Shown: one piece after another, positions 5,690-29,364 of the stretch
Position numbering within the stretch: the stretch's first letter is position 1
Layout of the letters: each line of letters opens with the position of its first letter
Assembly: GCF_008000815.1 (NCBI RefSeq)
Contig: NZ_CP042806.1
Coordinates: 5,456,001 to 5,520,000 of the forward strand
Source: Terriglobus albidus
Lineage (GTDB): Bacteria > Acidobacteriota > Terriglobia > Terriglobales > Acidobacteriaceae
Length of the DNA: 64,000 nt
Direction: 5' to 3'
Translations under genes and position numbers: made by a program
The notes under the pieces: generated by a model
The model's input: only the letters and a program-made list of their open reading frames with translations
Told to the model about the DNA's origin: nothing
Databases searched by the model: none

Positions 5690-5751
5690 GTGAATGCCGT
5701 GTGAATAGTTCATGGCGCATTCACACGATCTGCGTAGACTGACGGCAACTC

Positions 5752-8601: not shown

Positions 8602-8626
8602 CTCACTCGCCTAACGAGTCCTCAAC

Positions 8627-8758
8627 CGAGCGCTGAAGGCCGGGGCTCCGATGAACTTGTTCATCGGGTGGAAAGGCGCGTGCTTACCAGCTTTCAGTGC
8701 TCTCCCAGCGAACAAGTTCGCTTGGGACTCCGGAGCATGGGGCGCGCCCAGTGGTGGG
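8627..8758. repeat. Diverged family B repeat with two variable palindromes
   Basis: Starts with GAGCGCTGAAGGCCGGGG and carries two palindromes, CGATGAACTTGTTCATCG and CAGCGAACAAGTTCGCTTGG, of the same type as the CCCCAATGAAC palindrome at 7.4 and 48.0 kb but with other stem sequences. Minus-oriented relative to the 46.1-kb copy. Confidence 0.6.
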
Positions 8759-9250
8759 CTACTGCAAACTCTTCTCCAGCTCACGCACCAACGCTGAATC
8801 AGGATTCTCCCGTATGAGCTGTTCCAACTGCTGCTTCGCAGCCTCCGTCTGACCAGCCTTCCGATACAGAGTAGCCAGCAGCAGATGCGCCTGTGGATTC
8901 ACCTTTTCAATCGCGGCTGCCTTCTCTTGTAAAGCTGCCGACGCATCGGGCGCGGCAGGAGCTGGTAAACGGTGATCCTGCAGCACCGTGGCTAGTACCG
9001 TCAGTTGCTCCGCGGTAAATCCTGCAGGTGCAGTGAGAGTGCCATCGGGATGCAGCTTCAACTCACCACCAGCGTCGTGAACCGATGCGACAACCTCGGT
9101 CGACCGCTGCTTCTGGCGTCCTGCAAGCCCAACCAGCAGCACCATGATCGACACCACCGCCGCCAGTGCAAAAAACCATGTGGGGAGTCGATGAGTCTTC
9201 TTCGTAGAAGAGGTCGACGGATTCGGGCTGGCCGGTTGCGGATCAGTCAT
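8759..9250 (-). CDS. Small membrane-anchored TPR protein
   Basis: A 163-residue protein. A Ser/Pro/Thr-rich cytoplasmic start is followed by one transmembrane helix at about residues 25-44 (WFFALAAVVSIMVLLVGLAG). The C-terminal half holds a tetratricopeptide-like helical pair (HLLLATLYRKAGQTEAAKQQ, then LIRENPDSALVRELEKSL). Probably a type II membrane protein with a periplasmic TPR. No partner can be named. It stands on the minus strand downstream of the TIGR03435 gene and may be co-transcribed with it (65-bp gap). Confidence 0.68.
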   Translation of the reverse strand: MTDPQPASPNPSTSSTKKTHRLPTWFFALAAVVSIMVLLVGLAGRQKQRSTEVVASVHDAGGELKLHPDGTLTAPAGFTAEQLTVLATVLQDHRLPAPAAPDASAALQEKAAAIEKVNPQAHLLLATLYRKAGQTEAAKQQLEQLIRENPDSALVRELEKSLQ

Positions 9251-9315
9251 TCGCAGAAAATTTTATCGAATCGATGCGACCGGTTTCTCCGCTGTTGAAC
9301 TGTTTCCAGCCACAC

Positions 9316-10215
9316 CTAATTCTCCGTAGGCCGCGTCAATGCATCGATCACCGGCAACGCAACCACAGCCCGAGTCGGCTTCAACTTAATACCGAGTTGG
9401 TCCCGTATCGCCTCCAGCATCGTCGGTCCGTTGGCGGTGGCAGCATCCTGCGAACGCACTTTCGATGGAGGCATGGCTTCAATCGTGTAGTCCCACAATC
9501 CTATGAGCCCTGTCTGATCCACGACACGCCGCCCGACCTCGCCGGAGTTTTCGGCAAGATTCCCCACCAAGAGAGCCAGCAAACTCATCGATCCGGCTCG
9601 CGACCCGGCCTCAAACAATCCATCCTTTGTCGGCCTCGCCCCCTGGGTGTAACACTCCCAGGGAAACACCTCCGGCTTCGGAGCTTGATCACATGGCGGC
9701 CCTTTCTCGTGCGGAATCAATTTTGGCCCTGGTGTTCCAGGATTCACCAGCACCATAGCCAGCACCGGCGCCTCCTTTCCCTCAAAGTGCAGCTTCAACC
9801 CGAACCGCTCGGCCAGCAGCGCCTGCATCATCAACCGGTACTGGTCCTTGGTGGCATGCAGCGGAGCCGTCGCCTCGATCGAGAACCGTGTCGACCTCAC
9901 CCAATCGGGATACTTCGCAAAGATCGCCCTGGTCTCTTCCCCCGTCAGCCAGATTTTGTATGCGAACTGGATATAGATCGGCAGTGCAAAATCGGCGTGG
10001 AACCGGCCATTCGGATCGTGGAACCATTCATCGGCGCTCAATGCGAAGGAAGGCGGCTTGAACGCCTCCTTGTCTTCATGGATCGATGCGACCTCAAAGC
10101 TCATCGCTCCGCCCGCCGCCTTCTGCCAGTCAGGAACGCTCTTCGCACTGTTCTGAGCGGGGAGAACACCGCTACACACGAGAAGGCACAGCAGCAGGAA
10201 GGAAAGAGTTTTCAT
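9316..10215 (-). CDS. TIGR03435 family secreted protein
   Basis: A 299-residue protein with a signal peptide (LSFLLLCLLVCSGVLPAQ). It shows the hallmarks of TIGR03435: MSFEVASIHEDK near the mature N-terminus, the FALPIYIQFAYKI stretch, RLMMQALLAERFGLKLHFE, an internal GGSMSLLALL-like segment (AGSMSLLALLVGNL), RRVVDQTGLIGLWDYTIE, and a C-terminal LEAIRDQLGIKLKPTRA. The family is expanded in soil acidobacteria and has no known function. It is transcribed away from the peptide-export cluster, sharing the promoter gap 10216-10398. Confidence 0.9.
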   Translation of the reverse strand: MKTLSFLLLCLLVCSGVLPAQNSAKSVPDWQKAAGGAMSFEVASIHEDKEAFKPPSFALSADEWFHDPNGRFHADFALPIYIQFAYKIWLTGEETRAIFAKYPDWVRSTRFSIEATAPLHATKDQYRLMMQALLAERFGLKLHFEGKEAPVLAMVLVNPGTPGPKLIPHEKGPPCDQAPKPEVFPWECYTQGARPTKDGLFEAGSRAGSMSLLALLVGNLAENSGEVGRRVVDQTGLIGLWDYTIEAMPPSKVRSQDAATANGPTMLEAIRDQLGIKLKPTRAVVALPVIDALTRPTEN

Positions 10216-10340
10216 GGGGCTCCGGTCGACTCTTCCGCATTGGACGCCCCCTGCGGCACATCGTCAACCGCCTTCAAAACTGCCCGCGTCCCATTCTGGG
10301 GCAACCCATTACCCTTCGCACGAGTTACGTCATTGTCTCG

Positions 10341-10369
10341 TTGGCGCGGCGAATGTCTATGGATAGAAT
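10341..10369 (+). promoter_or_regulatory. Candidate sigma70-type promoter of the peptide-export cluster
   Basis: TTGGCG at 10341 and TAGAAT at 10364 are spaced by 17 bp, 30 bp before the proposed GTG start of the TolC-like gene. The -10 matches five of six consensus bases, the -35 only partly. Read by eye. Confidence 0.35.
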
Positions 10370-10398
10370 GGGAGCCAACTCCTGAATCTGGAAGACCT

Positions 10399-12024
10399 GT
10401 GTCTCTCGTTGTGAAACTCAGAGCAGTCCCACGAGTGGCGTTGGGATGCTTTTGCCTTTGGTTCTCTAGTCCGCTTATCTGCCCGGCGCAGACCCCTTCC
10501 ACGTTCTCTTTGCAGGACGCGTTACGCCTTACGCTGCTGCATCATCCGCAGCTCCAGATCCAGCAGGAGCAGGTCAACGCACAGCGCGGGGTGCTCAGGC
10601 AGACCGCGGGACAGTTCAACCTGCAGCTCGGCGCAGACGGCAGTCAGGCCCATACCTATCGCCCGCTTACCGCCTACGAAGAGTTCGTCTATGGCCAGTA
10701 CGGCCAGGTGGGAACCTCGCTAACCACCAATACGAGCCAGCTTGCTTTCGAAGCCAGCCGTCAGCTCCGCAACGGCATCACCCTGTCGCCCAGCATCAGC
10801 GCGGCGCGCACCACCGATAATCTCACCAACCTGGGCGGCATCAGCCAGGGCTCCATTCAGTTCGCGGTGACGCTGCCGCTGCTGCGCGGACGCGGACGCT
10901 CGGTCGTCGATGCACAGGAGCTCTCCTCCGCCAAACAGGTCGAGGCCGCGGTCTTCGAGGTGAACGAGACTATCACCGGCCTGCTGGCCACCACTGCCAA
11001 CAGCTACTGGAGCGTGGTTGCGGCCCAGAAGAATCTCGACGTACTCAAAGAAGCAGAGACACGCTCCAATGCCCTGGTGGAAAATACGCAGTCGCTGATC
11101 GAGGCAGACCGTCTGCCCCGCGCGGAGATCAATACCGCCAAAGCAAACCAGGCACAGCGTATCGCCAACCGCATGGAGGGTGAACGCCTGGTCGTCGAGG
11201 CCCGGCAACAACTCGCCGTCGACATGGGACTGGACGTTTCGCAGGTCAACCTTCTGCCAGAGATCTCTACCGACTTCCCCGCCGGCATGGATCCCGAGAC
11301 CGTTCCTTCCGGACCGCAGGCCATCGAGGCATACACGCAACTGGCGCTGCAACAGCGACCCGAGCTCAAGGCGCTGAAGAAGCGGGAAGAGGCCTCGCAA
11401 ATTCTTGCCGTTGCCGCGAAGAACGGCCTGAAGCCACAGTTGGATGTCCGGGTGTCGACCGGAGCCTCCGGCCTGGATGAAGGCACCCGCTTCGATGAGT
11501 TCCTGTTCGCGCCCGGCCACTCGGCCCGCGGCATGGACGTCTCCGGCGGCATCACCTATCGCTTCCCGCCGGCGCGCGACGCCGCTGCCGGCGCCCTGAT
11601 GCAGGCTAATGCCGCCAAACGTCAGGTCGATCTGCAGTATATGGATACAGCCCGCCGCACCGCCGCCGCGGTGACTCCCGCGCTTGTCGGGGTACGCAGC
11701 GAGGCGCAGCAGCTTCGCCGCACGCATGAGTCGGCGCAGTTCTACCGCAACGCCGTCGATGCCGAGCGCGAGAAGCTACGCATGGGCGCGGGCAGCGTGC
11801 TCAACACCCTACAGATGCAGGATCGCCTGATTCTGGCGATGCAGACCGAGGTCCAGGCAGAGCTCGAATATGCACAGATGCTGGTGCGGATGCGGCAGGC
11901 CACCAGCACCATCGTCACCACCTACGACCAGGGAGGCACGATCGACCCCGATGTCTTCTCGACCCTGCCCGCACTCCCCCAGACCCAACAGCAGACCCAG
12001 CAGAAGGCGGTACCCCTTCCATGA
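10399..12024 (+). CDS. TolC-family outer-membrane factor of the NHLM export cluster
   Basis: Outer-membrane channel of about 541 residues for a type I-like export system. The frame stays open far upstream, but that part only mirrors the antisense TIGR03435 gene. The GTG at 10399, with GGAAG just before it, opens a signal peptide (VALGCFCLWFSSPLICPAQ). The mature part begins TFSLQDALRLTLLHHPQLQI and has the two repeats of long helices typical of TolC, including NSYWSVVAAQKNLDVLKEAE and RPELKALKKREEASQILAVA. The stop overlaps the start of the HlyD-type gene (ATGA), so they are translationally coupled. It should form the outer part of the channel that releases the processed peptide. Confidence 0.88.
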   Translation: MSLVVKLRAVPRVALGCFCLWFSSPLICPAQTPSTFSLQDALRLTLLHHPQLQIQQEQVNAQRGVLRQTAGQFNLQLGADGSQAHTYRPLTAYEEFVYGQYGQVGTSLTTNTSQLAFEASRQLRNGITLSPSISAARTTDNLTNLGGISQGSIQFAVTLPLLRGRGRSVVDAQELSSAKQVEAAVFEVNETITGLLATTANSYWSVVAAQKNLDVLKEAETRSNALVENTQSLIEADRLPRAEINTAKANQAQRIANRMEGERLVVEARQQLAVDMGLDVSQVNLLPEISTDFPAGMDPETVPSGPQAIEAYTQLALQQRPELKALKKREEASQILAVAAKNGLKPQLDVRVSTGASGLDEGTRFDEFLFAPGHSARGMDVSGGITYRFPPARDAAAGALMQANAAKRQVDLQYMDTARRTAAAVTPALVGVRSEAQQLRRTHESAQFYRNAVDAEREKLRMGAGSVLNTLQMQDRLILAMQTEVQAELEYAQMLVRMRQATSTIVTTYDQGGTIDPDVFSTLPALPQTQQQTQQKAVPLP

Positions 12025-13265
12025 GCCTTCGCCGTATCTCGAAAGAGAAGCTCTCCTCCCCCGATCAGCTTGACCAGACCATGCACGTCGCCGGGCCCAT
12101 GTACTGGACCTCGCTGCTCGCTATCCTGATCGCGCTTGCCGCCGCGGGTATCTGGTCGTACACCGGCAGTATCCCCACAAAGGCCATCGGCGAAGGCACC
12201 GTGATTCGTCCCGGCGGCGTCTTCAATGTCTTTGCCGGCGGCTCCGGCTTCATCAAGGACTTCAAGGTCAAGGTCGGCGACCGCGTGCACGCCAACCAGA
12301 CGGTTGCCGAGATATATCAGCCGTCGTCCGACGACGATATCCGCGCCCTGGAAGAGCACCTCACCGAGCTGAGAAGCCAGACCTCGCAGTCTGTCTCGCT
12401 GCGGCAGGACAGCGCCAAACTGCAGATCAAGAGCCTCGACCTCGAGCGCGAGAACGACCGCAACGAGATTGAGCAACAACAGAAGATGGCGAAGATCACC
12501 TCCGACGAGGTCGGCACCGACGAACAGCTCTTCTCCAAAGGCCTGATCACCCGGCAGGTATTGGTCGATGCGCAGCAGCGACTGGTCACCATCCAGACCT
12601 CCATCGCCCGGCTGCAGGCAGCCATCTCACAAGCCGATTCGCAAGCCTTCCAGTCGAACTGGCAGCCCACCGAACTGAAGCGCCAGCAGGAGATCGAGAT
12701 CCACGATCTGGAAGCCCGCCTGCTGGGGGCGCGCAATCGCGCTCACCTCAGCTCTACTGTTGTCGCCCCGGTTAATGGTGAGATCGTCGAAGAGAAGATC
12801 TATACCGGCGCCATGATTCCCACCGGAACGCCGGTCGTGAGCATTCAGGCAGACACCGACCAGGTCATCGCGGTGCTGTACGTTCCATCGAATCTGGCCA
12901 AGGACATTAAGCCGGGCATGGACGCCGAGATCTCTCCCTCGACGGCTAAACGCGAAGAGTATGGCTTCATCCGCGGCAAGGTGACCTTCGTTGCCCGTTA
13001 TCCTGCGACCACCAGCGGCATGATGACCCTCTTTGAGAACGATGCCCTGGTTGACTCCCTGCGCAGCCGCGGCCTTGTCACCGAAGTAGACATCGCGATG
13101 GAGCGCGCCGCAGACACGCCCTCCGGCTTCCGCTGGTCCAGCTCGCGCGGGCCTGACACCATCATCGGCCCGGGCACGCTCTGCTCCGCGCAGATCGTCA
13201 CCCGCAAGCAGAAGCCGATCACACTGGTCTTCCCCTTCCTGAAAAAACTGATGGGGCTTCACTAA
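12021..13265 (+). CDS. HlyD-like membrane-fusion protein, NHLM bacteriocin export type
   Basis: A 414-residue adaptor linking the inner-membrane ABC exporters to TolC. One transmembrane helix at about residues 30-48 (LLAILIALAAAGIWSYTG), a lipoyl half (GGSGFIKDFKVKVGDRVHAN), a long coiled coil (about 110-225), the second lipoyl half (VVAPVNGEIVEEKIYTGAMI) and a beta-barrel region. The fit is to the NHLP/NHLM secretion-protein branch of HlyD. It overlaps the TolC gene by 4 bp, and the peptidase-ABC gene starts on the base after its stop, so these genes form one tight operon. Confidence 0.88.
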   Translation: MSLRRISKEKLSSPDQLDQTMHVAGPMYWTSLLAILIALAAAGIWSYTGSIPTKAIGEGTVIRPGGVFNVFAGGSGFIKDFKVKVGDRVHANQTVAEIYQPSSDDDIRALEEHLTELRSQTSQSVSLRQDSAKLQIKSLDLERENDRNEIEQQQKMAKITSDEVGTDEQLFSKGLITRQVLVDAQQRLVTIQTSIARLQAAISQADSQAFQSNWQPTELKRQQEIEIHDLEARLLGARNRAHLSSTVVAPVNGEIVEEKIYTGAMIPTGTPVVSIQADTDQVIAVLYVPSNLAKDIKPGMDAEISPSTAKREEYGFIRGKVTFVARYPATTSGMMTLFENDALVDSLRSRGLVTEVDIAMERAADTPSGFRWSSSRGPDTIIGPGTLCSAQIVTRKQKPITLVFPFLKKLMGLH

Positions 13266-15440
13266 ATGGCAGAGTCACCAAAGCTGCAGCACCGCACCGT
13301 TCGCACCGAAGCCATCCTGCAGATGGAAGCGACGGAGTGCGGCGCGGCTTCGCTCGCCATCGTCCTGGCGTACTTCGGCCGCCACGTTCCACTGGAAAAA
13401 CTGCGGCAGGACTGCGGTGTCTCTCGTGATGGAAGCAAGGCGGGCAACGTCCTCAAGGCCGCCAGGACCTACGGTCTGGTCTGTTCTGGATGGCGTAAAG
13501 GCGCGGATGTCCTGCTGGAGCTGAAACCTCCCTTCATCGTCTTCTGGAAGATGAACCACTTCCTTGTGGTGGAGGGTTTCCGTAAAGATCGCGTTCTGAT
13601 CAGCGATCCCGCTTCGGGACGATATAAAGTCAGCCGTACCGAGTTTGAAGAAGCCTACTCCGGTGTTGTGCTCACCTTCGAAAAGGGGCCTGACTTCAAA
13701 ACCGGCGGTTCCCGCCCGGCCGTATGGCAAGCACTCTTAGCCCGGCTTCCAGGCAGCCGGCGGCCACTGCTCTTCCTGCTGCTGGCCAGCCTTGCGATGG
13801 TGGTACCGGGGTTGCTGACGCCGGTCTTCTCCCGCGTCTTCCTGGACAACATCCTGATCGGCGGTCTGACGAACTGGCTGCTGCCTCTGCTTGAGATCAT
13901 GGGGCTCTCAGCCATCCTGGCCGCGGTGCTGACCTGGATGCAGTCCTACATCGTGCAGCGGCTCTCGATGAAGCTGTCGCTCTCGGGCTCGGCCAAGTTC
14001 TTCTGGCACATTCTGCGGCTGCCGATGGAGTTCTACGCACAGCGTTACGCAGGCGAGATCGGCTCCCGCGTCTCTCTGAACGACACGCTTGGCATCACCG
14101 TCGCCAGCCAGTTGACCGGCGGTGTTCTCAGCCTTCTACTCATCGTCTTTTATGGCATTGTGCTCTTCAAGTTCGACGCCGCGCTGACCTCCGTCGGCGT
14201 CTTCACCATGGTGGTGAACCTCCTGGTCCTGCAGTGGATCACCCGCCACCGTGTCGAACAGGGCCAGAAGCTCACCCAGTTTCAGGGCAAGGTCGTCAGC
14301 ACCTCGATGGTCGGCCTGCAGAGTATTGAGACCATCAAGGCCAATGCCGGAGAATCAGACTTCTTCGCCAAATGGGGCGGGCACCAGGCAAAGCTACTGA
14401 ATGCCAGCCAGGAGCTTGCCAGCTCCTCCATCGTGCTCTCCGGCATTCCCACGGTGCTGAACCAGTTGAACATCGCCACCATGATCTGCCTGGGAGGCAT
14501 CCGCGTCATGGACGGCGTGCTGACCATGGGATCGCTGATCGCCTTTCAGGCCTTGATGGGGAGCTTCACCGCGCCGGTCAGCTCACTGCTCTCCACCAGC
14601 AGCCAGATCCAGGAGATGAAGGGCACCGTCAACCGCCTCGACGACGTGCTGCGCAATCCCATCGATCCGCAACTGGCCAATGAGCCCAAACCGATTCCGC
14701 ATCTCGAAGGTGTTGCCCGGCTGGCCGGAGCGGTGGAGCTTCGCGATCTCACCTTCGGCTACAGCAGGCTCGATCCGCCGCTGATTCAGGGCTTCAACCT
14801 CACCCTGCGTCCCGGTCAGCGTGTCGCCCTCGTCGGAGGCTCGGGCAGCGGCAAGTCCACTGTCTCGCGTCTTATCTGCGGCCTCTTTGCTCCGTGGTCC
14901 GGCGAAGTGCTGTTCGATGGCATTCCCCGCAATGAGCTGCCGCGCCGTCTTATCCACGACTCGGTCGCCTTGGTCGATCAGGATATCGTTCTCTTTTCCG
15001 GAACCATGCGCGAGAACATCACCCTGTGGGACTCGACGGTTCCCGACGCGTCCATGATTCTGGCTGCGAAGGACGCGGCGATTCACGACACCATCGCGGG
15101 CCTGAAGGGCGGCTACGACTTCCAGGTGGAAGAGGGCGGACGCAACTTCAGCGGCGGCCAGCGTCAGCGCATCGAGATTGCACGCGCACTCTGCGGCACC
15201 CCTCGCGTGTTCGTGCTCGACGAAGCGACCAGCGCGCTCGATCCGCTCACCGAGCAAGAGGTCAGCGACAACATCCGCCGCCGCGGATGCACCTGCATCA
15301 TCGTCGCCCATCGGCTCAGCACCATTCGCGACTGCGACGAGATTCTGGTGATGGAGCGCGGCAAGATCGTACAACGCGGAACCCATGAGGAGATGGCGGC
15401 AGTCGACGGGCCCTACGCCCGCCTGATTGCCACGGCATAA
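13266..15440 (+). CDS. C39-peptidase ABC transporter, NHLM type
   Basis: A 724-residue exporter that would remove the leader of a double-glycine peptide and pump the core out. The N-terminal C39 peptidase has its catalytic residues in place: Cys25 in ATECGAASL, His98 in MNHFLVVEGF and Asp114 in ISDPASG. Six transmembrane helices follow (about 155-430). The ATPase domain has Walker A GGSGSGKST (near 525), signature FSGGQRQR and Walker B VFVLDEATSALD. This is the peptidase/permease/ATPase member of NHLM systems. The precursor two genes downstream carries a matching GG site, so enzyme and substrate are found together. Confidence 0.93.
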   Translation: MAESPKLQHRTVRTEAILQMEATECGAASLAIVLAYFGRHVPLEKLRQDCGVSRDGSKAGNVLKAARTYGLVCSGWRKGADVLLELKPPFIVFWKMNHFLVVEGFRKDRVLISDPASGRYKVSRTEFEEAYSGVVLTFEKGPDFKTGGSRPAVWQALLARLPGSRRPLLFLLLASLAMVVPGLLTPVFSRVFLDNILIGGLTNWLLPLLEIMGLSAILAAVLTWMQSYIVQRLSMKLSLSGSAKFFWHILRLPMEFYAQRYAGEIGSRVSLNDTLGITVASQLTGGVLSLLLIVFYGIVLFKFDAALTSVGVFTMVVNLLVLQWITRHRVEQGQKLTQFQGKVVSTSMVGLQSIETIKANAGESDFFAKWGGHQAKLLNASQELASSSIVLSGIPTVLNQLNIATMICLGGIRVMDGVLTMGSLIAFQALMGSFTAPVSSLLSTSSQIQEMKGTVNRLDDVLRNPIDPQLANEPKPIPHLEGVARLAGAVELRDLTFGYSRLDPPLIQGFNLTLRPGQRVALVGGSGSGKSTVSRLICGLFAPWSGEVLFDGIPRNELPRRLIHDSVALVDQDIVLFSGTMRENITLWDSTVPDASMILAAKDAAIHDTIAGLKGGYDFQVEEGGRNFSGGQRQRIEIARALCGTPRVFVLDEATSALDPLTEQEVSDNIRRRGCTCIIVAHRLSTIRDCDEILVMERGKIVQRGTHEEMAAVDGPYARLIATA

Positions 15441-15441
15441 G

Positions 15442-18030
15442 ATGGACACCCTCACTCCAACACGGTTTCTGCTCGACGGCGAAGGCGGGGCCTGGCGTAT
15501 CGAACGCGGCACGGTCGATCTGTTCCTGGTCGACGTGGACCATGCAGGCCAGACCGGTCCTCTCTTCCACAGCACAACGCTGGAAGCAGGTACGGCGATC
15601 TTTGCTGTCGGCAAGGTGGTGCAGACGGAGAACATGGCTACCCTTCTCTGCCAGGCGCGCGCGGGTGCTGTGGTTACTCCTCTGCTGCAACCGCAGGAAG
15701 ATGAGATCGCCGAGTGGAAGGAGAAGCTCGCCTTCGCCTCCGGCCTGGAGAAAGATCCCGACGCCCCGCTCGATGCGCTGCACTACATCCTTCTGCAGAC
15801 CCTCATCGCCCAGCGCGACAGCCACGAACACGGCGAGAGCCGACGGCTGAAAGACAAGGAACGGGAGGGCCGCTCCGCCGTCAGCCGTGCCCTGCTGGAG
15901 CTTGGTTCTGTCCTGTCTACGCACGAAGATCCTGATGCCGTTATCGCCGACGAGCGCTCGGCCATCTTCGCCGCTTGCCGGTTCCTGGGCCACCATGCCG
16001 GCATTGAGATCCGTGCTCCGAAGTCCTTCAGCACATCTGACGATCCACTGCGTGACGTCGCCGCCATCGCGCGTGCCTCCGGAGTCCGCCATCGCGAGGT
16101 GGTGTTGCGTGGCGCATGGTGGAGGCAGGACCACGGCCCGCTGCTCGCCTTCCTGGCGGAGAACGAGGATGCAGCGCCGTCGCCGGTCGCGCTGCTGCAT
16201 GAGACCCACAGCTATCGCATCTACGATCCCGCAAAAGGGACCGTCGTTCCGCTGACCACTGACATCGCAGCAAAGCTGCTGCCGGATGCGGTGATGTTCT
16301 ATCGTCCCTTCCCATCACGCGCCATCGATTGGAAAGACCTGCTCCGTTTCGGTCTCTTCGGCACACGCAAAGACGCCACGACCGTCGTCATCGTCGGCAT
16401 CGCGAGCGGCCTGCTGGCCCTGGTGACACCGGTAGCCACCGGCATTCTGTTCGACACCATCATTCCCAGCGCGCAGCGGCCGCAGCTCTATCAGATGGCA
16501 GCACTGCTCTTCACGGCAAACATGGTCGGCTTCCTCATCTCCTTGACTTCAAGCATTGCCATGCAGCGCATGGAAGGCCGTATGGAAGGGGCCATTCAGT
16601 CCGCCGTGTGGGATCGCCTGCTGAGCCTGCCTGTCCGCTTCTTCCGCGACTACAACTCCGGCGACCTGGTAAATCGCAGCCTCGCGATTGGGCAGATACG
16701 GCAGATGCTGACCGGCACGGCGCTGTCCACTATCCTCTCCGGCATCTTCTCCATCTTTTCCTTCTTCCTGCTGTTCCGTTACAGCATGTCGATGGCGCTG
16801 GTAGCCAGTGTTCTGGTTGTCATCACGGCAGCCTTCTCCGCCCTGTGCGGCTATCTGCAGATGCGCTTTCATCGGCAGATCTACGAGATCGCCGGAAAGA
16901 TCTCAGGCCTGACGCTGGAGATCATGAACGGTATCGCCAAGCTGCGCATGTCGGGTACGGAATCACACGGATTCGCGCGCTGGGCAACAGAGTTCGCCAA
17001 ACAGAAGAATGCCTACAACAAGGCCGCGCGCGTCAACATCGCCATCGACATCTTCAACGGGATCTTCCCCTCCGTCGCCGGCATCGCCATCTTCTATTAC
17101 GGCTTTGAACAGATGACCAGCAGCGCCGGACTCACCCCAGGCAGCTTCGTCGCCTTCAATGCCGCCTTTGGACAGTTTCTGGGCTCGGCGCTTGGCCTGG
17201 CGCGCACGCTGGTTTCCATCATCGGCATCATCCCGGCGTATGAACGTGCCGCGCCGATCATGAAGGCCATACCGGAATCGACGGAATCGCGCTTCGATCC
17301 AGGCCGCCTGCGCGGCGCCATCGAAGCCAGTCGCCTGCGCTTCCGCTACAAGGAAGATCTTCCCATCGTTCTGAACGATGTCTCCTTCACTATCAATCCG
17401 GGAGAGTTCGTCGCCTTTGTCGGCCACTCCGGCTCGGGCAAATCCACGCTCTTCCGTCTGTTGCTCGGCTTCGAGAAGCCGGAGTCGGGCTTCATTCACT
17501 TCGACGGCCTGGATCTGGACGATATCGACCCACAGGCGCTGCGCCGCCAGATGGGCGTGGTGCTGCAGAATGGTCGCATCACCGACGGCGATATCTTCAC
17601 CAACATCATCGGCTCCGCCCCTTTAAGTATCGACGACGCCTGGGTGGCCGCACGGGCCGCCGGTCTGGACAAAGATATTGAGGCTATGCCGATGGGCATG
17701 CACACCATCATCAGCGAAGGCGGCGGCGGGCTCTCCGGCGGACAGCGCCAGCGCCTGCTGATCGCCCGCGCCATCGTCCACAGGCCGCGTATCCTGCTCT
17801 TCGATGAGGCCACCAGCGCGCTCGATAACCAGACCCAGGCCACCGTAAGCCGCAGCCTGGAGCAGCTTAATTCCACCCGCATCGTCATCGCACACCGCCT
17901 CAGCACTATCCTGCATGCGGACCGCATCTTCGTCTTCGACCAGGGCCGCATTGTGCAGCAGGGGAGCTATGAAGAACTGATGAGCCAGGAAGGGCTGTTT
18001 CGTAACCTGGCCGAGCGCCAGATCGCCTGA
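15442..18030 (+). CDS. Second NHLM-type ABC transporter (no peptidase)
   Basis: An 862-residue ABC exporter whose ATG lies one base after the stop of the C39 transporter. The N-terminal 290 residues have no C39 peptidase; they form the extended cytoplasmic region seen in the NHLM export permease/ATPase subunit. Then come six membrane helices (about 310-580) and an ATPase domain with Walker A GHSGSGKST, signature LSGGQRQRLLIARAI and Walker B ILLFDEATSALD. NHLM loci normally carry exactly this pair of transporters, and they probably form a heterodimer. Confidence 0.9.
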   Translation: MDTLTPTRFLLDGEGGAWRIERGTVDLFLVDVDHAGQTGPLFHSTTLEAGTAIFAVGKVVQTENMATLLCQARAGAVVTPLLQPQEDEIAEWKEKLAFASGLEKDPDAPLDALHYILLQTLIAQRDSHEHGESRRLKDKEREGRSAVSRALLELGSVLSTHEDPDAVIADERSAIFAACRFLGHHAGIEIRAPKSFSTSDDPLRDVAAIARASGVRHREVVLRGAWWRQDHGPLLAFLAENEDAAPSPVALLHETHSYRIYDPAKGTVVPLTTDIAAKLLPDAVMFYRPFPSRAIDWKDLLRFGLFGTRKDATTVVIVGIASGLLALVTPVATGILFDTIIPSAQRPQLYQMAALLFTANMVGFLISLTSSIAMQRMEGRMEGAIQSAVWDRLLSLPVRFFRDYNSGDLVNRSLAIGQIRQMLTGTALSTILSGIFSIFSFFLLFRYSMSMALVASVLVVITAAFSALCGYLQMRFHRQIYEIAGKISGLTLEIMNGIAKLRMSGTESHGFARWATEFAKQKNAYNKAARVNIAIDIFNGIFPSVAGIAIFYYGFEQMTSSAGLTPGSFVAFNAAFGQFLGSALGLARTLVSIIGIIPAYERAAPIMKAIPESTESRFDPGRLRGAIEASRLRFRYKEDLPIVLNDVSFTINPGEFVAFVGHSGSGKSTLFRLLLGFEKPESGFIHFDGLDLDDIDPQALRRQMGVVLQNGRITDGDIFTNIIGSAPLSIDDAWVAARAAGLDKDIEAMPMGMHTIISEGGGGLSGGQRQRLLIARAIVHRPRILLFDEATSALDNQTQATVSRSLEQLNSTRIVIAHRLSTILHADRIFVFDQGRIVQQGSYEELMSQEGLFRNLAERQIA

Positions 18031-18115
18031 TAGCGACATGACCATTACCTGCTCTGCCCTTTCTGGAAAACGGAGATGGCTTTCTGTTCTGGTTCAGAGT
18101 AGATTGAAGACGTTC

Positions 18116-18131
18116 TGTTCCCCCTGGAACA
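18116..18131. promoter_or_regulatory. Inverted repeat before the precursor gene
   Basis: TGTTCC, spacer CCCT, GGAACA: a perfect 6-bp inverted repeat 32 bp before the precursor ATG, in the 133-bp gap after the second ABC gene. It could be an operator, or a small hairpin that changes precursor expression relative to the exporters. Function not shown. Confidence 0.35.
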
Positions 18132-18163
18132 TTTGCTGCTAAATCTACTGCCTTGGAAAAATC

Positions 18164-18622
18164 ATGAGTTTGCAAAGCGCTACTGAGTTTACGAACACCC
18201 TTACGTCCAATCCCGAACTGGCTGCTACCCTCTTCCAGTCTGCCAACGGCAAGACTGTTTCAGAAGCAGCCGCCATCGCCAGCGATCTCGGCAAACAGCA
18301 CGGTTTTGACTTCACCGCCGATGAAGCCATCGAGGCCCGCAACGCCTACGCTTCAGCCAACCCCCTCTCGGAAGAGGAACTGGACTCGGTTGCAGGTGGC
18401 GGAGATTCCGCCCCTTATATCGGCACGATGATCGGCACCGTTGCCGGTCAGCTCGCTCCCACCGGAACTGGCGGCGTCGTCGGAGCCGGCGTTGGAGCCG
18501 GTGTCGCTACCGCCGTTGGCGGCGGCTCTGCATCCGAGTCTGTCGCAGCCGGTGCTGTCGCGGCAGCCAACAACTTAAACGAATCCAAGAACATCGTGCA
18601 GCAGATCTTCAGCGGCTGGTAA
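18164..18622 (+). CDS. Nif11-like double-glycine precursor peptide
   Basis: A 152-residue precursor. Residues 1-79 resemble the Nif11-type leader (MSLQSATEF start, GFDFTADEAIEARNA helix) and end in LSEEELDSVAGG, the classic double-glycine cleavage site of C39 peptidases; a third Gly follows. Cleavage after Gly79 would release a 73-residue core, rich in Gly (about 16), Ala, Val and Ser, with GxxxG-type runs (GVVGAGVGAGVATAVGGG) like helix-packing bacteriocins. The core has no Cys, so no thioether or disulfide chemistry. It has a single Tyr (Tyr85) and a single Trp, the C-terminal residue (Trp152). The first fits a phenol-oxidising enzyme and both fit aromatic prenylation. Start supported by GGAA 7 bp before ATG. 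Confidence 0.87.
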   Translation: MSLQSATEFTNTLTSNPELAATLFQSANGKTVSEAAAIASDLGKQHGFDFTADEAIEARNAYASANPLSEEELDSVAGGGDSAPYIGTMIGTVAGQLAPTGTGGVVGAGVGAGVATAVGGGSASESVAAGAVAAANNLNESKNIVQQIFSGW

Positions 18623-18629
18623 ACGCGGC

Positions 18630-20075
18630 TTGTCCCTCGAAACAGACGTACTCGCAGAGTTCAGAGCGGCCATCGGCGAACAACATGTTCTCACCGAGGC
18701 CGCTCTTCTGCGTGCCTGCGAAACCGCGACCTTCCCAACTACCCAACAGGTCTTCGGCCTCCTACAGCCGGCCTCGGCGGAAGAGGTTGCTGCATGCGTG
18801 AAGGTCGCGGCCAATCATCGCGTTCCGCTCTACCCCATCAGCCGCGGACGGAACTGGGGGCTGGGCTCGCGTGTGCCATCGAACCATGCCGTGCTGCTCG
18901 ATCTCTCACGCATGAACCGCATCCTGCACTTCGACGAGCGCTTCGGCTGCCTCACCCTTGAACCCGGCGTGACCTTCGAGCAGGTGCATGCTTTCCTGAT
19001 TAGACAGAAGGCGCAGTGGTTTCTACCCACCATCGGCGGTCCGCCGGACGCCAGCGTGCTCGGTAACTTTCTTGAACGTGGCGACGGCATCGGCCCTCGT
19101 GCCGAACGAACAGCAAACATGGCCTCGCTGCAGGTGGTGCTGGGCGATGGCTCGATTATCGATGATGGTTATGCGCGCTTCGAGGATATTCCGCTTGCAT
19201 TGCTGAGTGCTATGCCCGCGGGCCCGGCCTTCAGCAGCATCTTCACCCAGTCAAACCTCGGCGTCGTTACGCGCATGACGGTCTCGCTCGCGCGCCGTCC
19301 CAGTCATCTGCAGATGGTCTATGCCCCGATCCCCGATGAACATCGAGTATGTACCATCGATGCGCTGCAGCAATTACAGACGGTCATTGGCTCCGAAGCA
19401 TTCCTCACGCTATGGAACGGCGGCAAACTGAACGCGCGCGGTCAGGCTATGCCGCAGGTGGATGCGAATGCATGGTTCCTCAGCGGAGCTCTTTATGGCC
19501 ACAGCAGCCTGATGGCGCAGGCACAGAAAGAAGCCGCCATCGCAGCGCTTGCATCGGGGCTTCCCGCGTTGCAGTTCTTCGATGAAAGCAATCTGCCTGA
19601 CTTTCAACAGCAGGCCGGCATCTATCTCGGCCAACCCAGCACGCTCAATCTGCAGAGTCTTTACGCCGCATCGCAACGAACGATGCCGGAGACTCCCGAT
19701 CCCGACCGCGACGGCTGCGGAGCCATCTGGCTCTGCCCTGAGATCCCCTTTGATGGAGCCACGATCGTGCGAGCGATTACTCTCTGCGAGACCATCCTTC
19801 GCAAGTACAATCTCTCACCCATTCTCGGCATGAGCGCGCTGTCATCACGCACGGTACGGTTCTTCGTCTCTATCCTCTACGATCGCACGGCTGAAAACGC
19901 CGATGAGAACGCCATGCAATGCCACGATGAGATGCAGGCAGCGCTTCTGGCTGAAGGCTTCTATCCCTATCGGCTCGGCATCCAGTCGATGAATGCAGTC
20001 GCGCCTTCACCACTGCTGGAACGGATCAAAGCAGCACTGGATCCGAAGGGGATCCTGGCGCCTGGGCGTTACTAG
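18630..20075 (+). CDS. FAD-linked oxidase of vanillyl-alcohol oxidase / 4-cresol dehydrogenase type
   Basis: A 481-residue flavoenzyme beginning with TTG 7 bp after the precursor stop, so almost surely co-transcribed. The FAD-binding half has PISRGRNWGLGSRVPS, LDLSRMNRILHFDERFGCLT, LEPGVTFEQVHAFL and LGNFLERGDGIGP, which match the order and spacing in 4-cresol dehydrogenase and vanillyl-alcohol oxidase. Near the C-terminus, YPYRLGIQSM holds a Tyr-Arg pair (447-448) like the phenolate-binding pair of that family, followed by LDPKGILAPGRY. The family oxidises para-alkyl phenols, and tyrosine is one, so I infer that the core's single Tyr could be the substrate. It could also act on a small molecule. 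No signal peptide, so it acts before export. Confidence 0.85.
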   Translation: MSLETDVLAEFRAAIGEQHVLTEAALLRACETATFPTTQQVFGLLQPASAEEVAACVKVAANHRVPLYPISRGRNWGLGSRVPSNHAVLLDLSRMNRILHFDERFGCLTLEPGVTFEQVHAFLIRQKAQWFLPTIGGPPDASVLGNFLERGDGIGPRAERTANMASLQVVLGDGSIIDDGYARFEDIPLALLSAMPAGPAFSSIFTQSNLGVVTRMTVSLARRPSHLQMVYAPIPDEHRVCTIDALQQLQTVIGSEAFLTLWNGGKLNARGQAMPQVDANAWFLSGALYGHSSLMAQAQKEAAIAALASGLPALQFFDESNLPDFQQQAGIYLGQPSTLNLQSLYAASQRTMPETPDPDRDGCGAIWLCPEIPFDGATIVRAITLCETILRKYNLSPILGMSALSSRTVRFFVSILYDRTAENADENAMQCHDEMQAALLAEGFYPYRLGIQSMNAVAPSPLLERIKAALDPKGILAPGRY

Positions 20076-20168
20076 GGCGAGGCTGTGTGAAAAACAGCAC
20101 TGGCTTTTGCATTGCCCTCAGCGGCTAAAGCCGCCTTCTTTCGTGTCGATATACGACACGGCTAAAGC

Positions 20169-21444
20169 TGTTCAGTTCCATGACATCCTTTACACCTTGT
20201 CTCCAGACATCCTTTACAGGTTTATGCCTGTTTAGGGGTGTTTTTGGATGGCATGGAGGAAGGTGGAAGTGGAAGCGCAGCGATTGCGGTTTGTGGAGGC
20301 GGCGATGATTGGAGAGCGATCGTTTTCGTCTCTGTGTGTGGAGTACGAGATTAGCCGTCCGACGGGTTATCTGTGGCTGAAGCGATACCGTGAGCATGGA
20401 GCGGCCGGCATGCAGGAAGCCAGCCGCAGGCCTCTGCTGAGTCCCCGTCAGAGCCCTGCCGAGTTGGAAGAGCAGATCGTGTCTTTACGGCGCCAGCATC
20501 CTGACTGGGGTGCACGTAAGCTTCGCGTTCTGCTCGGCCGATCTGGGGTGAAGGTGCCATCGTCGACCGTACATCGAGTGTTGCGTCGGCACGGTCTGAT
20601 CCACCGGCTGGACAGCCATCCACAGGCCACTGGCAGCTTCTGTCGCGAGGCGCCTAATCAGCTCTGGCAGATGGATTTCAAAAGCCCTAAGGGATGGAAC
20701 GCGCATCTTGGCCCCTTATCCGTGTTGGATGACCACAGCCGCTATGCCTTGGTGTTGGAGCAACTGTCCTCGGGTGAAGGTCTCGTCGTCCAACAGAGGC
20801 TGGATAAGGCGTTCTCTGACTGTGGGTTGCCCGAGGCCATGCTGATGGATCACGGCCAGCCCTGGTGGAACGCGCAGTCACCAGGAGGATGGACGCAGCT
20901 ATCCGTGTGGCTGATGCGGCTGGGCATCCGGCTGTACTTCTCCGGAGTCCGCCACCCGCAGACCCAGGGTAAGGTGGAACGCTTCCACGGTGCCCTGGAG
21001 CGGGCACGGAGAAGGTGCGGGCCGATGGATACGCCGCCTGGCCAGTCATGGCTGGACCGCTTCCGGGAAGAGTACAACCATGTTCGTCCCCATGAAGCGC
21101 TGGACATGGAAACGCCAGCAGACCACTGGCACCCCAGCCAGCGAGAGTACACCGAACCACGTAACCCCGCGTATGCCCCGGATGCCGAAGTGCGCGAGCT
21201 CAACAGCAACGGAGCGCTCTGGCTGGACGGACGCAGCTGGCAGGTAGCCGGAGCCCTGGCTCATCAGCCTGTCCGTCTCGCTCGCATCGATCAACGCATC
21301 CTGATCTTCTACGGTGACACGCCCATCCGGGAACTCGACCTCACGGGGCAGGGTTCCACGATCGTGGAACCCTGCCCCGCAAACTCACTCAATCTGTAAA
21401 GGATGTGTGGAGACAAACTGTAAACCATCTCTGGAGACTAGACA
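20169..21444 (+). mobile_element. IS481-family insertion sequence, complete
   Basis: A 1276-bp element. The two ends are 51-bp imperfect inverted repeats, both starting 5'-TGT and ending in a shared ACATCCTTTACAG. Each end holds two copies of a motif like CTCCAGACATCCTTTACAG. The element is flanked by an 8-bp direct repeat, GCTAAAGC, at 20161-20168 and 21445-21452, the likely target duplication. Removing the element restores a perfect hairpin (GACACGGC-TAAA-GCCGTGTC), so it hit a family A repeat. The single transposase gene is intact, so the element may be recent. Confidence 0.85.
20248..21399 (+). CDS. IS481-family transposase
   Basis: A 383-residue DDE transposase. An N-terminal helix-turn-helix region (FSSLCVEYEISRPTGYLWLK) is followed by a second HTH-like stretch (GARKLRVLLGRSGVKVPSST) and the integrase core with D in WQMDFK, D in LMDHGQPW and E in KVERFHG. 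The typical HPQTQGK and YNHVRPHEAL stretches are present. The stop codon lies inside the inner right inverted repeat. Full length, no frameshift: probably active. Confidence 0.93.
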   Translation: MAWRKVEVEAQRLRFVEAAMIGERSFSSLCVEYEISRPTGYLWLKRYREHGAAGMQEASRRPLLSPRQSPAELEEQIVSLRRQHPDWGARKLRVLLGRSGVKVPSSTVHRVLRRHGLIHRLDSHPQATGSFCREAPNQLWQMDFKSPKGWNAHLGPLSVLDDHSRYALVLEQLSSGEGLVVQQRLDKAFSDCGLPEAMLMDHGQPWWNAQSPGGWTQLSVWLMRLGIRLYFSGVRHPQTQGKVERFHGALERARRRCGPMDTPPGQSWLDRFREEYNHVRPHEALDMETPADHWHPSQREYTEPRNPAYAPDAEVRELNSNGALWLDGRSWQVAGALAHQPVRLARIDQRILIFYGDTPIRELDLTGQGSTIVEPCPANSLNL

Positions 21445-21662
21445 GCTAAAGCCGTGTCCTTAAGCAAGACGATTCGCGTAAAACGCGAATGCTCATGCTG
21501 ACGCATGAGTAAGATATTCGAGCGAAGCTTGAATCGGCGGATATCAACACCCAGGCCAGCTCTGCTGGCTGTCTTGCTTAAGGGCACGGCTTTAGCCGTG
21601 CCGTAAAAGCCCTGCAAATATGCGGCTTTAGCCGCTGAGGTACTGATCTTACAAAATGAAAC

Positions 21663-22664
21663 CTATTCTCTGACCTCAGGCAAACCGACTTGCTTAGGTC
21701 TCCGGCCCCCCGCCGGCATGTAATACAGCGAAAAGTTCTCAACCTCTCCACGCTCCAACTCATGCATCGGCAACGAGACCACCATATCCAGCAGCGGAAC
21801 CTCTCCATAGAGACCATGCACCCGCGCCGCAACAGGATGCGGTACCCACTTCGCAAGAAACGCAGATGGCTCCATCGGATGAAGCTGCACCATCAGGTCC
21901 CGGTTTCGGCTCGAGATTTGAAAGTGCGTCCACAATGCCTCTTCCATGGCACACATGGTCTGCCGAGAAAGCACCGGCTGCAGCCGCGCCCGCACACTAT
22001 CGGAAGCAAACTCTTCCGCCGTAACATCCGGATAGCTGCGAAACCCCGTCGACCCATCGAAACAAAGATCGTATCCAAACAACAGCGAGGGGTGCAGATG
22101 CAATGCATCGAATAACTCATCCCTCCCGTGCATGGCCAGCGCCTTCTGTACCGGATTACGTACAACCCCAGTCTCATCGTCCGCAAAGAACCACAGCTTC
22201 AAACGCGATTGCAATGCCTGCTCACGAAGATCAAGACCGACGACCACACGGCTGACACGTGTCCAATCGATATCGCCCTCCAGAAACCGCCACAGCAAGG
22301 AGAGGTCCAGTGCAGGAGCCTCCGCCGCTTTCACCGCTTCGAAGAACGACATCACCCCGGCAACGAATCCCTGCACATCTTGTGGTACGCAAAAGAGATT
22401 GAACCTGCCGGCTTGAACGCTGTCTCCTGCAACCTTGATCGACAACTCCACGGTTGCATACGCCGCCTCACGCACCAGCTCGCGGAAGCCTTGATAAGCC
22501 ACGCTCACCTGCACCGCCTCTCCGATTCCGAAGATACGGCAGTGTGTCTCCATCCACCGGAGGTTTTTAGCAATGTGCCAGGCAGCAGGTTGCTCCGCCA
22601 GCATGCGGATGTGAGCCTGTACCCGTTCCTGAAAGCCTGCAGTTCCCGAGGAAGATATCGACAC
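21663..22664 (-). CDS. LynF/TruF/PatF-like peptide prenyltransferase (putative)
   Basis: A 333-residue protein with a GTG start. Several stretches follow, in order and spacing, those I recall from cyanobactin prenyltransferases (LynF, TruF, PatF): SRVVVGLDLREQALQSRLKL, LLFGYDLCFDG, AARVHGLYGEVPLLDM and, near the C-terminus, HELERGEVENFSLYYMP. The length also fits (about 290-330). That family transfers dimethylallyl or similar groups to Tyr, Trp, Ser, Thr or other positions of ribosomal peptides. No signal peptide or membrane span. It is convergent with the peptide cluster and separated from the FAD oxidase by repeats and the IS. Family call is by eye from remembered sequences; substrate and link to the precursor are inference. 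Confidence 0.68.
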   Translation of the reverse strand: MSISSSGTAGFQERVQAHIRMLAEQPAAWHIAKNLRWMETHCRIFGIGEAVQVSVAYQGFRELVREAAYATVELSIKVAGDSVQAGRFNLFCVPQDVQGFVAGVMSFFEAVKAAEAPALDLSLLWRFLEGDIDWTRVSRVVVGLDLREQALQSRLKLWFFADDETGVVRNPVQKALAMHGRDELFDALHLHPSLLFGYDLCFDGSTGFRSYPDVTAEEFASDSVRARLQPVLSRQTMCAMEEALWTHFQISSRNRDLMVQLHPMEPSAFLAKWVPHPVAARVHGLYGEVPLLDMVVSLPMHELERGEVENFSLYYMPAGGRRPKQVGLPEVRE

Positions 22665-22820
22665 TGAGGGCCATTCTAGTCAATTCCAGCGAGTCTAGCC
22701 ACCGCGGGACCTGGAGGCCAACAAGCAACTTCGTTACAGTACCGGGCTATATCGCGCCTATCCATTCCTATCGAATCCACATCTCCACCGCCGGATAGAG
22801 TTGGCCTCTGGGGGTGTGCA

Positions 22821-23909
22821 GTGTCACACTTAGGAGCGATCGGTTATTTCGCTGTGAAGCGCCTCTCGATGCCTCTGAACTTCAGCCCGTTGAAAACTGA
22901 CCTGCTCGCAGTTGCAGCGTGTGTTCTCGCCCTGCCACTTGCCTGGGAGCTGGATGCGCCTTCCTCGTGCCTTCTGCTTGCGGTGATGGTAAGCAGCCTC
23001 TATGGCGGCCGCCGTTCCGGATATATTTCGGTCGTGCTTGGAGCGGCACTGTTTTATGTATTCTTTCTTACGCCACGGTTCAGCCTGTTTCACCCAAGGG
23101 GAGAGTTCCTGCGTCTGTTTGTCTTCATCGTGGCCATGGTGCTGGCGACGGAGTTGATTGCGGCGAGGCACCGCGCGGAAGAGTCACTCCGCCAGACACA
23201 GACGAAACTCGCACAGGCAACACAGACCGCGACAATAGCCGAGTTCTCCGCCTCGGTGGTTCATGAGATCAGCCAGCCGCTCAGCGCCGTCGTAGCGCAC
23301 GGACAAGCCAGCCTGCGCTGGCTGCAAGCCGATCCTCCGAACTTCGCAAACGCCCAGGCTTCCGTCGAACGCATCGTTCGAGATAGCAAAGACGCGGTGA
23401 GCATCATTAAGGGCTTGAGGACTCTCTTTCGCAGGTCGCCGCTGCAGAAGGCCCCTATCGACCTGCGACCGGTTGTCAGCGAGGTCGTCTTGCTGGTGCG
23501 CGGCCGCGCGGAGAAAGACGGAGTTGTCGTCGAGGTCCAACTCTCGAAAGATCTGCCGTTGATCTTTGCTGACCGCATTCAACTGCAGCAGGTGCTCATG
23601 AACCTGGTATTGAATGGCATCGAATCCATGCGCGATGTCACCGGCCGGCAAAAGACTTTGGTGATCCACTCGCGAGAACAGGATGACATGCTGTTGGTGG
23701 AGGTCCGCGATCAAGGTATCGGCGTCGAGAACTTCGACAAGATCTTTGAGACGTTCTTCACCACGAAAGAAAGTGGCATGGGAATGGGACTCTCCGTCTG
23801 CCGCTCGATCATTGAGGCCCATGATGGTCGCCTGTGGGGAACGCCGGGGCCGGTTGCCGGAACGGTTTTCAGCTTCACAATTCCGGTTTTTCGGGAGCAT
23901 ACCGCATGA
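22821..23909 (+). CDS. Sensor histidine kinase with DUF4118-like membrane domain
   Basis: A 362-residue kinase. The N-terminal 110 residues hold about four membrane helices of the DUF4118/KdpD-like type (LLAVMVSSLYGGRRSGYISV, PRFSLFHPRGEFLRL). The HisKA region has the H-box VVHEISQPLSAVV, His148 being the phosphorylation site; it resembles FixL-type kinases. The ATPase domain has NLVLNGIES, DQGIGV and GMGMGLSVCRSII. Start is GTG at 22821; an ATG at 22869 is an alternative. The stop overlaps the start of the response regulator (ATGA), so they form a pair, and they lie just before an RND efflux operon. Confidence 0.9.
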   Translation: MSHLGAIGYFAVKRLSMPLNFSPLKTDLLAVAACVLALPLAWELDAPSSCLLLAVMVSSLYGGRRSGYISVVLGAALFYVFFLTPRFSLFHPRGEFLRLFVFIVAMVLATELIAARHRAEESLRQTQTKLAQATQTATIAEFSASVVHEISQPLSAVVAHGQASLRWLQADPPNFANAQASVERIVRDSKDAVSIIKGLRTLFRRSPLQKAPIDLRPVVSEVVLLVRGRAEKDGVVVEVQLSKDLPLIFADRIQLQQVLMNLVLNGIESMRDVTGRQKTLVIHSREQDDMLLVEVRDQGIGVENFDKIFETFFTTKESGMGMGLSVCRSIIEAHDGRLWGTPGPVAGTVFSFTIPVFREHTA

Positions 23910-24541: not shown

Positions 24542-24594
24542 TTGTTGGCCCCCCACCGAATTTCCTACGATGAAACTCGATCGCAGGAGACCGC

Positions 24595-28165: not shown

Positions 28166-28176
28166 GGAGATCAACC

Positions 28177-29355: not shown

Positions 29356-29364
29356 GGAGGGACC

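Follow-up and report, generated by a model that had tools for sequence, protein, structure and literature searches.

The 64,000-nucleotide stretch of Terriglobus albidus analysed here (hereafter the window, from a 6.4 Mb genome on a single contig) carries at 10399-22664 the genes of a probable ribosomally synthesized and post-translationally modified peptide (RiPP): an NHLM export system, a Nif11-leader precursor, an oxidase of the VAO/PCMH type, an insertion sequence (IS) and a convergent peptide prenyltransferase, exactly as a preliminary description had read them from the sequence. The reading favoured here, with a probability of about 0.6, is that this locus makes a peptide natural product modified by the oxidase at its C-terminal Trp, and that the same indole is prenylated. 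A more specific proposal is put forward tentatively, namely a RiPP family present in three phyla or more, where the C-terminal Trp of a leader-bearing precursor would be oxidatively decarboxylated by a VAO-type enzyme to a vinyl-indole (dehydrotryptamine) cap, with interchangeable prenyl and halogen options.

The precursor gene (18164..18622, plus strand) encodes 152 residues. Its leader (residues 1-79) ends in LSEEELDSVAGG and is followed, after a VAGG junction, by a Gly/Ala-rich core of 73 residues (80-152) that lacks Cys and has a single Tyr and a single Trp, the latter being the last residue (Trp152, codon 18617..18619) and the proposed site of modification. The protein is of the Nif11 type, scoring 29.4 bits with the Pfam model (PF07862, cut-off 23.8) and 30.6 bits with TIGR03798, slightly under its cut-off of 32.3. 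As already proposed in the preliminary description, a core of 73 residues devoid of Cys rules out the Cys-based chemistry of lanthipeptides, sactipeptides and azole peptides. The oxidase gene (18630..20075, plus strand, TTG start) begins 7 bp past the precursor stop and encodes an FAD_binding_4 domain (PF01565, 7e-23), and the prenyltransferase gene (21663..22664, minus strand) belongs to the LynF/TruF/PatF type (DUF5838, ABBA; PF19156, 97.1 bits, cut-off 28.8).

The association of such an oxidase with a precursor was found in ten loci belonging to Acidobacteriota, Cyanobacteriota and Pseudomonadota, plasmids having also been searched: the window, L044, L062, L063, L073, L100, L101, L211, L212 and L189, the last of which lies on the Azospirillum oryzae plasmid NZ_CP054617.1. 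These loci were collected by similarity to the oxidase or the prenyltransferase, not randomly. All 14 precursors adjacent to the oxidases, four of them in L073 and two in L100, end in Trp, and this is the sole Trp of the core in six of them; nine of the 14 cores contain no Tyr. L211 and L212 turned up after the Trp-end rule had been set and both obeyed it; L211 and L073, like L212 and L063, look like sister loci, and the 14 precursors are not independent. The cores differ widely in length, with 73 residues in the window, 12 to 36 in the cyanobacterial loci and 343 in Azospirillum, where the precursor is not of the Nif11 type and combines a short GG leader (MSKTQAAMVEISDDELLVVVGG) with a Gly-rich core ending in ...KKMKKW. 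NHLM genes accompany seven of the ten loci, with a HlyD gene alone in L073 and L211, and the three remaining loci are on contigs no longer than 5 to 7 kb. These ten loci argue, at the level of gene content, for the earlier suggestion of a Nif11 RiPP that the NHLM system exports and the oxidase modifies.

The last residue was also scored in the Nif11 open reading frames (ORFs) of the fetched loci. Among ORFs with a GG junction, none of 15 ends in Trp in genomes without a detected RiPP-type oxidase, versus 14 of 23 in oxidase genomes (10 adjacent to the oxidase and 4 not); for all Nif11 ORFs, the corresponding counts are 1/42 and 17/30. A one-sided Fisher test opposing the 14/14 adjacent precursors to the 0/15 controls gives 1.3e-8, a value that assumes an independence which fails here. 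The leader profile used for these controls was built from eight oxidase-linked leaders, one of them shortened, and so favours similar leaders, and the GG-junction pattern missed the L101 precursor and L183, which both end in Trp and both come from oxidase genomes. Among precursors of one kind, a Trp end is found in genome G428, where the GG site is followed by FCTP..., and in G997 (a similar FCAF... one), but not in two of G437 (LCTP... and FCTP...), where the oxidase was not detected. Eight NHLM plasmid loci were also examined out of 20 records, one of them (L195) coming from the same A. oryzae record as L189, which thus has two NHLM loci. No RiPP-type oxidase was found within 20 kb in these eight, and six short leader-type precursors in three of them do not end in Trp.

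The oxidases of these loci can be assigned to a family and, within it, to a distinct branch. The solved relatives of the window enzyme that bear names are mostly PCMH, VAO and eugenol oxidase (1dii, 1wve, 5fxd and others), even if the top structures are labelled just "FAD-binding oxidoreductase". The L044 homologue, with 196 of 499 positions identical to the window oxidase (about 40%), aligns over residues 8-499 with PCMH 1wve (9e-70), which places it in the VAO/PCMH family, and a YR pair near the C-terminus is retained in the window enzyme. Tyr95 of PCMH and Tyr108 of VAO presumably line the phenol site. In the window oxidase, the position aligned with Tyr95 of PCMH chain 1dii, assigned by counting along an ungapped alignment block, is Leu78 (codon 18861..18863, plus strand) in a motif NWGLGS. 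The ten RiPP-linked oxidases all have Leu or Phe here, their motif being NWGLGS except in L063 (NWGFGS), whereas Tyr is kept by 19 of 20 other relatives. Seven RiPP-linked oxidases group as a single clade (100/100) in a tree of 26 relatives, and with the Azospirillum enzyme added all eight remain together (100/99), although in that tree the Azospirillum enzyme joins that of the window and both have long branches, with a risk of long-branch attraction; both trees were made without L211 and L212. The absence of the phenol-site Tyr throughout the clade fits a non-phenolic ring as substrate.

The relatives outside this clade are themselves informative. Seven cyanobacterial non-RiPP relatives (L077, L078, L079, L103, L105, L106 and L107) lie within 4 kb of Acetyltransf_5/FeeM-like genes, a neighbourhood which suggests that their substrates are N-acyl aromatic amino acids whose carboxylate is free. 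These seven loci are probably N-acyl aromatic amino acid pathways, and two further related oxidases occur near a gene resembling a type III polyketide synthase (L074:7833-11338 and L076:7627-11207). Three other acidobacterial matches were considered as close kin and set aside, as they keep the Tyr and fall outside the RiPP clade. The co-occurrence of oxidase and precursor for which the preliminary description had asked in related genomes is observed in cyanobacterial and Azospirillum loci, but not beside these three acidobacterial oxidases, near which nothing matched a HlyD, an NHLM exporter or a precursor; a single short ABC ORF was seen, in L041 only.

The participation of the prenyltransferase, also proposed in the preliminary description, is supported by one locus in particular. 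In L044 (Coleofasciculus sp. S288), the precursor, the oxidase and the prenyltransferase follow one another in this order on one strand, and the precursor has a Nif11 leader, a GG site and an end in ...NVGGW. The L044 prenyltransferase shows the highest identity found with that of the window (88 of 284 positions, 31%), and the two are sisters (99/95) in a tree of 19 prenyltransferases in which the window branch is long. The best solved match of the window enzyme is SmiF (9vt8, 2e-29), other LynF/TruF/PatF-type enzymes also being recovered. A scan of 84,980 species with an alignment query and two strict peptide patterns, which relatives can escape, returned 15 loci, all of them cyanobacterial, and the search on plasmids gave no match. 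In the other 14, several of which are short contigs, the DNA examined matched neither the oxidase nor a precursor, and two of the 15 genomes contain the oxidase at 1e-20. In three overlapping cyanobacterial genome samples, the oxidase was detected in 8/386 (1e-50), 18/291 (1e-50) and 9/388 (1e-130) genomes, most further matches of the first two samples being non-RiPP relatives.

Enzymes that may act on the same indole vary between the ten loci. A prenyltransferase is present in two of them (the window and L044) and a Trp halogenase in six, identified by PF04820 in L063 and L073 and by homology to these in L100, L101, L211 and L212; no locus of the ten combines both. The Nodularia genome G430 contains L063 and a prenyltransferase (L046) on separate contigs. 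Both types of enzyme act on peptide Trp (PMC12715784, PMC10858898). A metallo-beta-lactamase-fold gene was also noticed, by Pfam or homology, near seven of the ten loci, all seven cyanobacterial (L044:3766-5265, L063:15830-17146, L073:14091-15527, L100:5107-6597, L101:12787-14298, L211:5095-6525 and L212:2668-4038). It is possible that it encodes a hydrolase of the same pathway, even if none is found among the window proteins scanned.

From these observations (gene set, homologies, Trp conservation, oxidase clade and residue swap) we infer a series of catalytic steps, their order and a biological role. The target of the oxidase is likely the C-terminal Trp and not Tyr, because 14 of 14 precursors end in Trp and nine of 14 cores have no Tyr. 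By analogy, the oxidase probably acts on the free C-terminal Trp as FeeG and CndG, which we take to be the chondrochloren oxidative decarboxylase, act on N-acyl-Tyr, so that an oxidative decarboxylation would leave a vinyl-indole cap. Oxidative decarboxylation by FeeG turns N-acyl-Tyr into an aminovinyl phenol (PMC8762209). The chondrochloren enzyme, which uses FAD, also decarboxylates an acyl-Tyr oxidatively, presumably through a quinone methide from which CO2 departs spontaneously if the carboxylate is free; if it is blocked, a dehydro residue results in place of decarboxylation (PMC3039461). Seen by this analogy, a Trp-ending peptide is the ribosomal equivalent of acyl-Tyr, its last residue being aromatic, N-acylated and free at the carboxylate, and its indole may yield an alkylidene-indolenine corresponding to the quinone methide; this equivalence and the loss of the phenol-site Tyr together lead to the vinyl-indole proposal.

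In the proposed pathway, the Nif11 leader with its LSEEEL motif would recruit the enzymes, and the flavoenzyme would take a hydride from the beta carbon of Trp152 to give the alkylidene-indolenine. Because the C-terminal carboxylate is free, CO2 would then be lost, leaving a 2-(indol-3-yl)vinyl amide with a hand-calculated mass shift of about -46.01 Da; retention of CO2 would instead give dehydro-Trp (about -2.02 Da). The prenyltransferase would place an isoprenyl group on the same indole, which the halogenases probably halogenate in the sister loci. Finally, the C39-ABC protein would cleave after GG and the NHLM/TolC complex would export the 73-residue Gly/Ala-rich peptide, which is plausibly antagonistic.

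Several observations weigh against this proposal. In oxidase genomes, four Trp-ending precursors are not adjacent to the oxidase (one of them, L156, lies about 12 kb away on the same contig) and nine GG-junction precursors have another last residue. In Azospirillum sp. B510, seven of eight NHLP precursors end in Trp and no oxidase is present in the 49 kb of plasmid examined, from which it follows that this residue may serve other enzymes. The residue swap is not exclusive either: a Candidatus Megaera plasmid protein, outside the clade and with no NHLM genes annotated within 17.6 kb, has Leu at the Tyr95 position in a motif NIGLGG. The leader of the L101 precursor ends in AAG, not GG, and no halogenase or prenyltransferase match occurs in L062 (a 5.9-kb contig) or L189 (28 kb). 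In the window itself, the IS separates the oxidase from a prenyltransferase on the other strand, and both proteins are divergent from their L044 counterparts (about 40% and 31% identity, respectively). The B510 array (L200:16441-22409, plasmid pAB510a) is of interest on its own, with eight NHLP-leader precursors of hydrophobic core beside NHLM export, a JmjC_2/cupin gene and a TfuA gene.

Four other explanations were weighed against the modification proposed here. The first keeps the same Trp with a different outcome, in which the carboxylate would be retained: alpha,beta-dehydro-Trp, hydroxylation of the beta carbon, or cyclisation of the prenylated indole. It is unlikely but has to be taken seriously, as VAO/PCMH enzymes catalyse hydroxylation, desaturation and related reactions. 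It is also favoured by the dehydro residue formed from a blocked carboxylate (PMC3039461) and by the dehydro-Tyr products that occur in N-acyl-Tyr lipids (PMC12479983). The invariant C-terminal Trp (14/14) and the FeeM-like neighbours of the related oxidases point, however, to an enzyme that requires a free carboxylate. A purely prenyl-dependent reaction is unlikely because only two of the ten loci have a prenyltransferase in the DNA examined. The dehydro-Trp outcome overlaps with the CO2-retaining branch of the pathway proposed above, so that the odds of the various readings do not sum to one.

It is less probable that the Trp is conserved for the halogenase or the prenyltransferase, the oxidase modifying another residue or merely assisting. 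Such a situation would have precedents, since SrpI and PalQ work on a C-terminal Trp (PMC10858898, PMC10853753), and Trp-ending NHLP precursors without a nearby oxidase do occur. L189 and L062, however, have the oxidase and Trp-ending precursors with no halogenase or prenyltransferase match in the DNA examined, the oxidase is the one enzyme common to the ten loci (though they were collected by oxidase or prenyltransferase), and the nine Tyr-free cores speak against this explanation as well.

A fortuitous vicinity, in which the NHLM system would export an unmodified Gly-rich bacteriocin next to an oxidase and a prenyltransferase carried as unrelated cargo of a mobile region, is very improbable. 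The IS between the two enzymes and the lack of a counterpart found in congeners for this stretch are what such an origin would leave, and the Gly/Ala-rich core gives the impression of a class II bacteriocin, although the matches (MccV 0.4, Bacteriocin_IIc 0.93) are not significant. The precursor, oxidase and prenyltransferase nevertheless stand in a row in Coleofasciculus, and precursor and oxidase accompany each other in ten loci of three phyla; because the gene set recurs in other phyla, a real RiPP pathway is far likelier than accidental neighbours. Oxidation followed by prenylation at Tyr, the target named in the preliminary description, is hardly tenable even if PCMH and VAO act on phenols, PagF and PirF prenylate Tyr and the window core has one such residue, for Tyr is missing from the core of L044, the sister locus with a prenyltransferase, and from eight of the 13 other cores, all 14 precursors end in Trp and none of the ten RiPP-linked oxidases keeps the Tyr aligned with Tyr95, so that Tyr was rejected as the site of modification.

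The possibility of a cyanobactin pathway was also rejected. Cyanobactin loci are characterized by PatA/PatG-type proteases and an E-type precursor beside the prenyltransferase. No such protease domain was found by Pfam and NCBIfam in ten proteins scanned over 8762-22664, the precursor is of the Nif11 type, and the window prenyltransferase matches Pfam DUF5838 but reaches only 120 bits with TIGR04445, under the cut-off of 140.

The export genes lie upstream of the precursor on the plus strand. They encode a TolC-type outer membrane channel (10399..12024, GTG start; PF02321, 93.4 bits, 2e-26), a HlyD-type membrane fusion protein (12021..13265; TIGR03794, 290 bits, cut-off 156), a C39 peptidase-ABC exporter for leader cleavage and export (13266..15440; TIGR03796, 1046 bits, cut-off 853; PF03412, 8e-35) and a second ABC permease/ATPase (15442..18030, ATG at 15442; TIGR03797, 923 bits, cut-off 709). 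All three NHLM-specific NCBIfam models thus exceed their curated cut-offs, and these genes, together with a Nif11 leader bearing a GG site, mark the locus as that of a probable NHLM-exported Nif11 RiPP. The genes are tightly packed, as first described: TolC and HlyD overlap by 4 bp, C39-ABC abuts HlyD and is followed by the second ABC gene after 1 bp. Between the oxidase and the prenyltransferase lies an IS481-family element (20196..21417, plus strand) whose transposase (20248-21399) scores 231 bits with NF033577 (cut-off 224) and whose inverted ends, near 20196-20219 and 21394-21417, match at 22 of 24 positions. Palindromic repeats resembling 'gcggctaaagccgc' are found on both sides of this element (20076-20200 and 21420-21660) and give the impression of dispersed repeats of the repetitive extragenic palindromic type. 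Rfam models at gathering scores have no match over 8500-24600, and a promoter scan of 17900-22900 found 0 sites when 1.7 were expected by shuffling.

This gene set is rare among related bacteria. Out of 150 genomes of the family, the window's own included, that genome is the only one with a TIGR04445 prenyltransferase match or with the oxidase at 1e-30, and two have a C39-ABC protein over the TIGR03796 cut-off; at 1e-20, the oxidase is matched in 4 of 297 genomes of the phylum, the window's included. In the other family genome with such an NHLM exporter (L033:8693-15669, G091:C203), neither a Nif11 precursor nor the oxidase was matched within the surrounding 20 kb. The stretch 10247..22830 has no counterpart found in four congeners, which also lack the prenyltransferase and, at 1e-30, the oxidase. 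Of this stretch, 10247-19900 was compared as DNA with the whole congener genomes and has no match in them (E 1e-30, 40 first-look candidates scored per genome). The congener G128 matches the window at 1064-8602, 9315-10246 and 22831-30801, with flanks conserved at 79-90% (90% for the right flank from 22831); these flanks lie on different contigs of a draft, so that no clean empty site is seen. On the right, similarity resumes in the interval separating the prenyltransferase start from the next gene, which leaves the prenyltransferase on the operon's side of this edge.

The comparison with characterized systems delimits what would be new in this pathway. PCMH, VAO and eugenol oxidase, which act on small phenols, are related in sequence to the window oxidase and share its YR pair near the C-terminus, but PCMH (1dii) has Tyr95 where the RiPP clade has Leu or Phe. 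PagF, PirF, SmiF and DciF belong to the same LynF/TruF/PatF family as the window prenyltransferase. Cyanobactin prenyltransferases, however, work without a leader (PMC12715784), whereas the window enzyme is found with a Nif11/NHLM system. SrpI brominates the C-terminal Trp of a proteusin, SrpE, through an LxxxxL leader motif (PMC10858898), and PalQ prenylates that of the NHLP peptide PalX (PMC10853753, PMC13290415). Both share with the window a long leader of the Nif11/NHLP class and a modified C-terminal Trp, but they rely on a flavin-dependent brominase and an isoprene-synthase-like prenyltransferase, and the accessible parts of these papers mention no such oxidase. MppC, an ABBA-type enzyme of the cyanobactin prenyltransferase family like that of the window, adds a geranyl group to Trp82 of MppE, a Nif11 peptide, and depends on the leader (PMC12715784); that system differs by the lanthionine ring made by MppM and a heptapeptide core, whereas the window has a Cys-free core and no lanthionine synthetase among the genes scanned. 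FeeG and the chondrochloren decarboxylase act oxidatively on aromatic residues that are N-acylated and whose carboxylate is free (PMC8762209, PMC3039461); relatives of the window oxidase adjoin FeeM-like genes. The substrate of these two enzymes is Tyr on a fatty acyl or nonribosomal peptide synthetase product, not a Trp-bearing ribosomal peptide, and the likeness drawn here is an analogy of reaction.

By title or abstract start, no VAO-type or flavin oxidase acting on such RiPPs appears among the matches listed from the open-licence literature, nor does such a peptide oxidase appear among those on N-acyl-Tyr and chondrochloren; the parts seen of PMC9505594 and PMC12615548 report no VAO-type oxidase on such peptides. 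The preliminary description knew of no pathway that joins these elements, which has to be corrected: tailoring of a C-terminal Trp (SrpI, PalQ) and prenylation of Trp in a Nif11 peptide (MppE/MppC) are already described, but a VAO-type oxidase in that role was not met in the literature matches listed. The window pathway is best classed with the Nif11/NHLM RiPPs, with a candidate new modification.

If true, this proposal would extend RiPP chemistry by a modification of the backbone terminus, in which a type of enzyme otherwise known from small phenols and, by analogy, from N-acyl-Tyr lipids deprives the peptide end of its carboxylate. It would also account for the Trp end of a set of NHLM-class precursors, give a sequence rule for finding more of them (an NWG[LF]GS oxidase beside a Trp-ending precursor) and possibly provide a leader-guided tool for the capping of protein C-termini. 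The acidobacterial core of 73 residues would then join the same type of pathway as the cyanobacterial and Azospirillum peptides.

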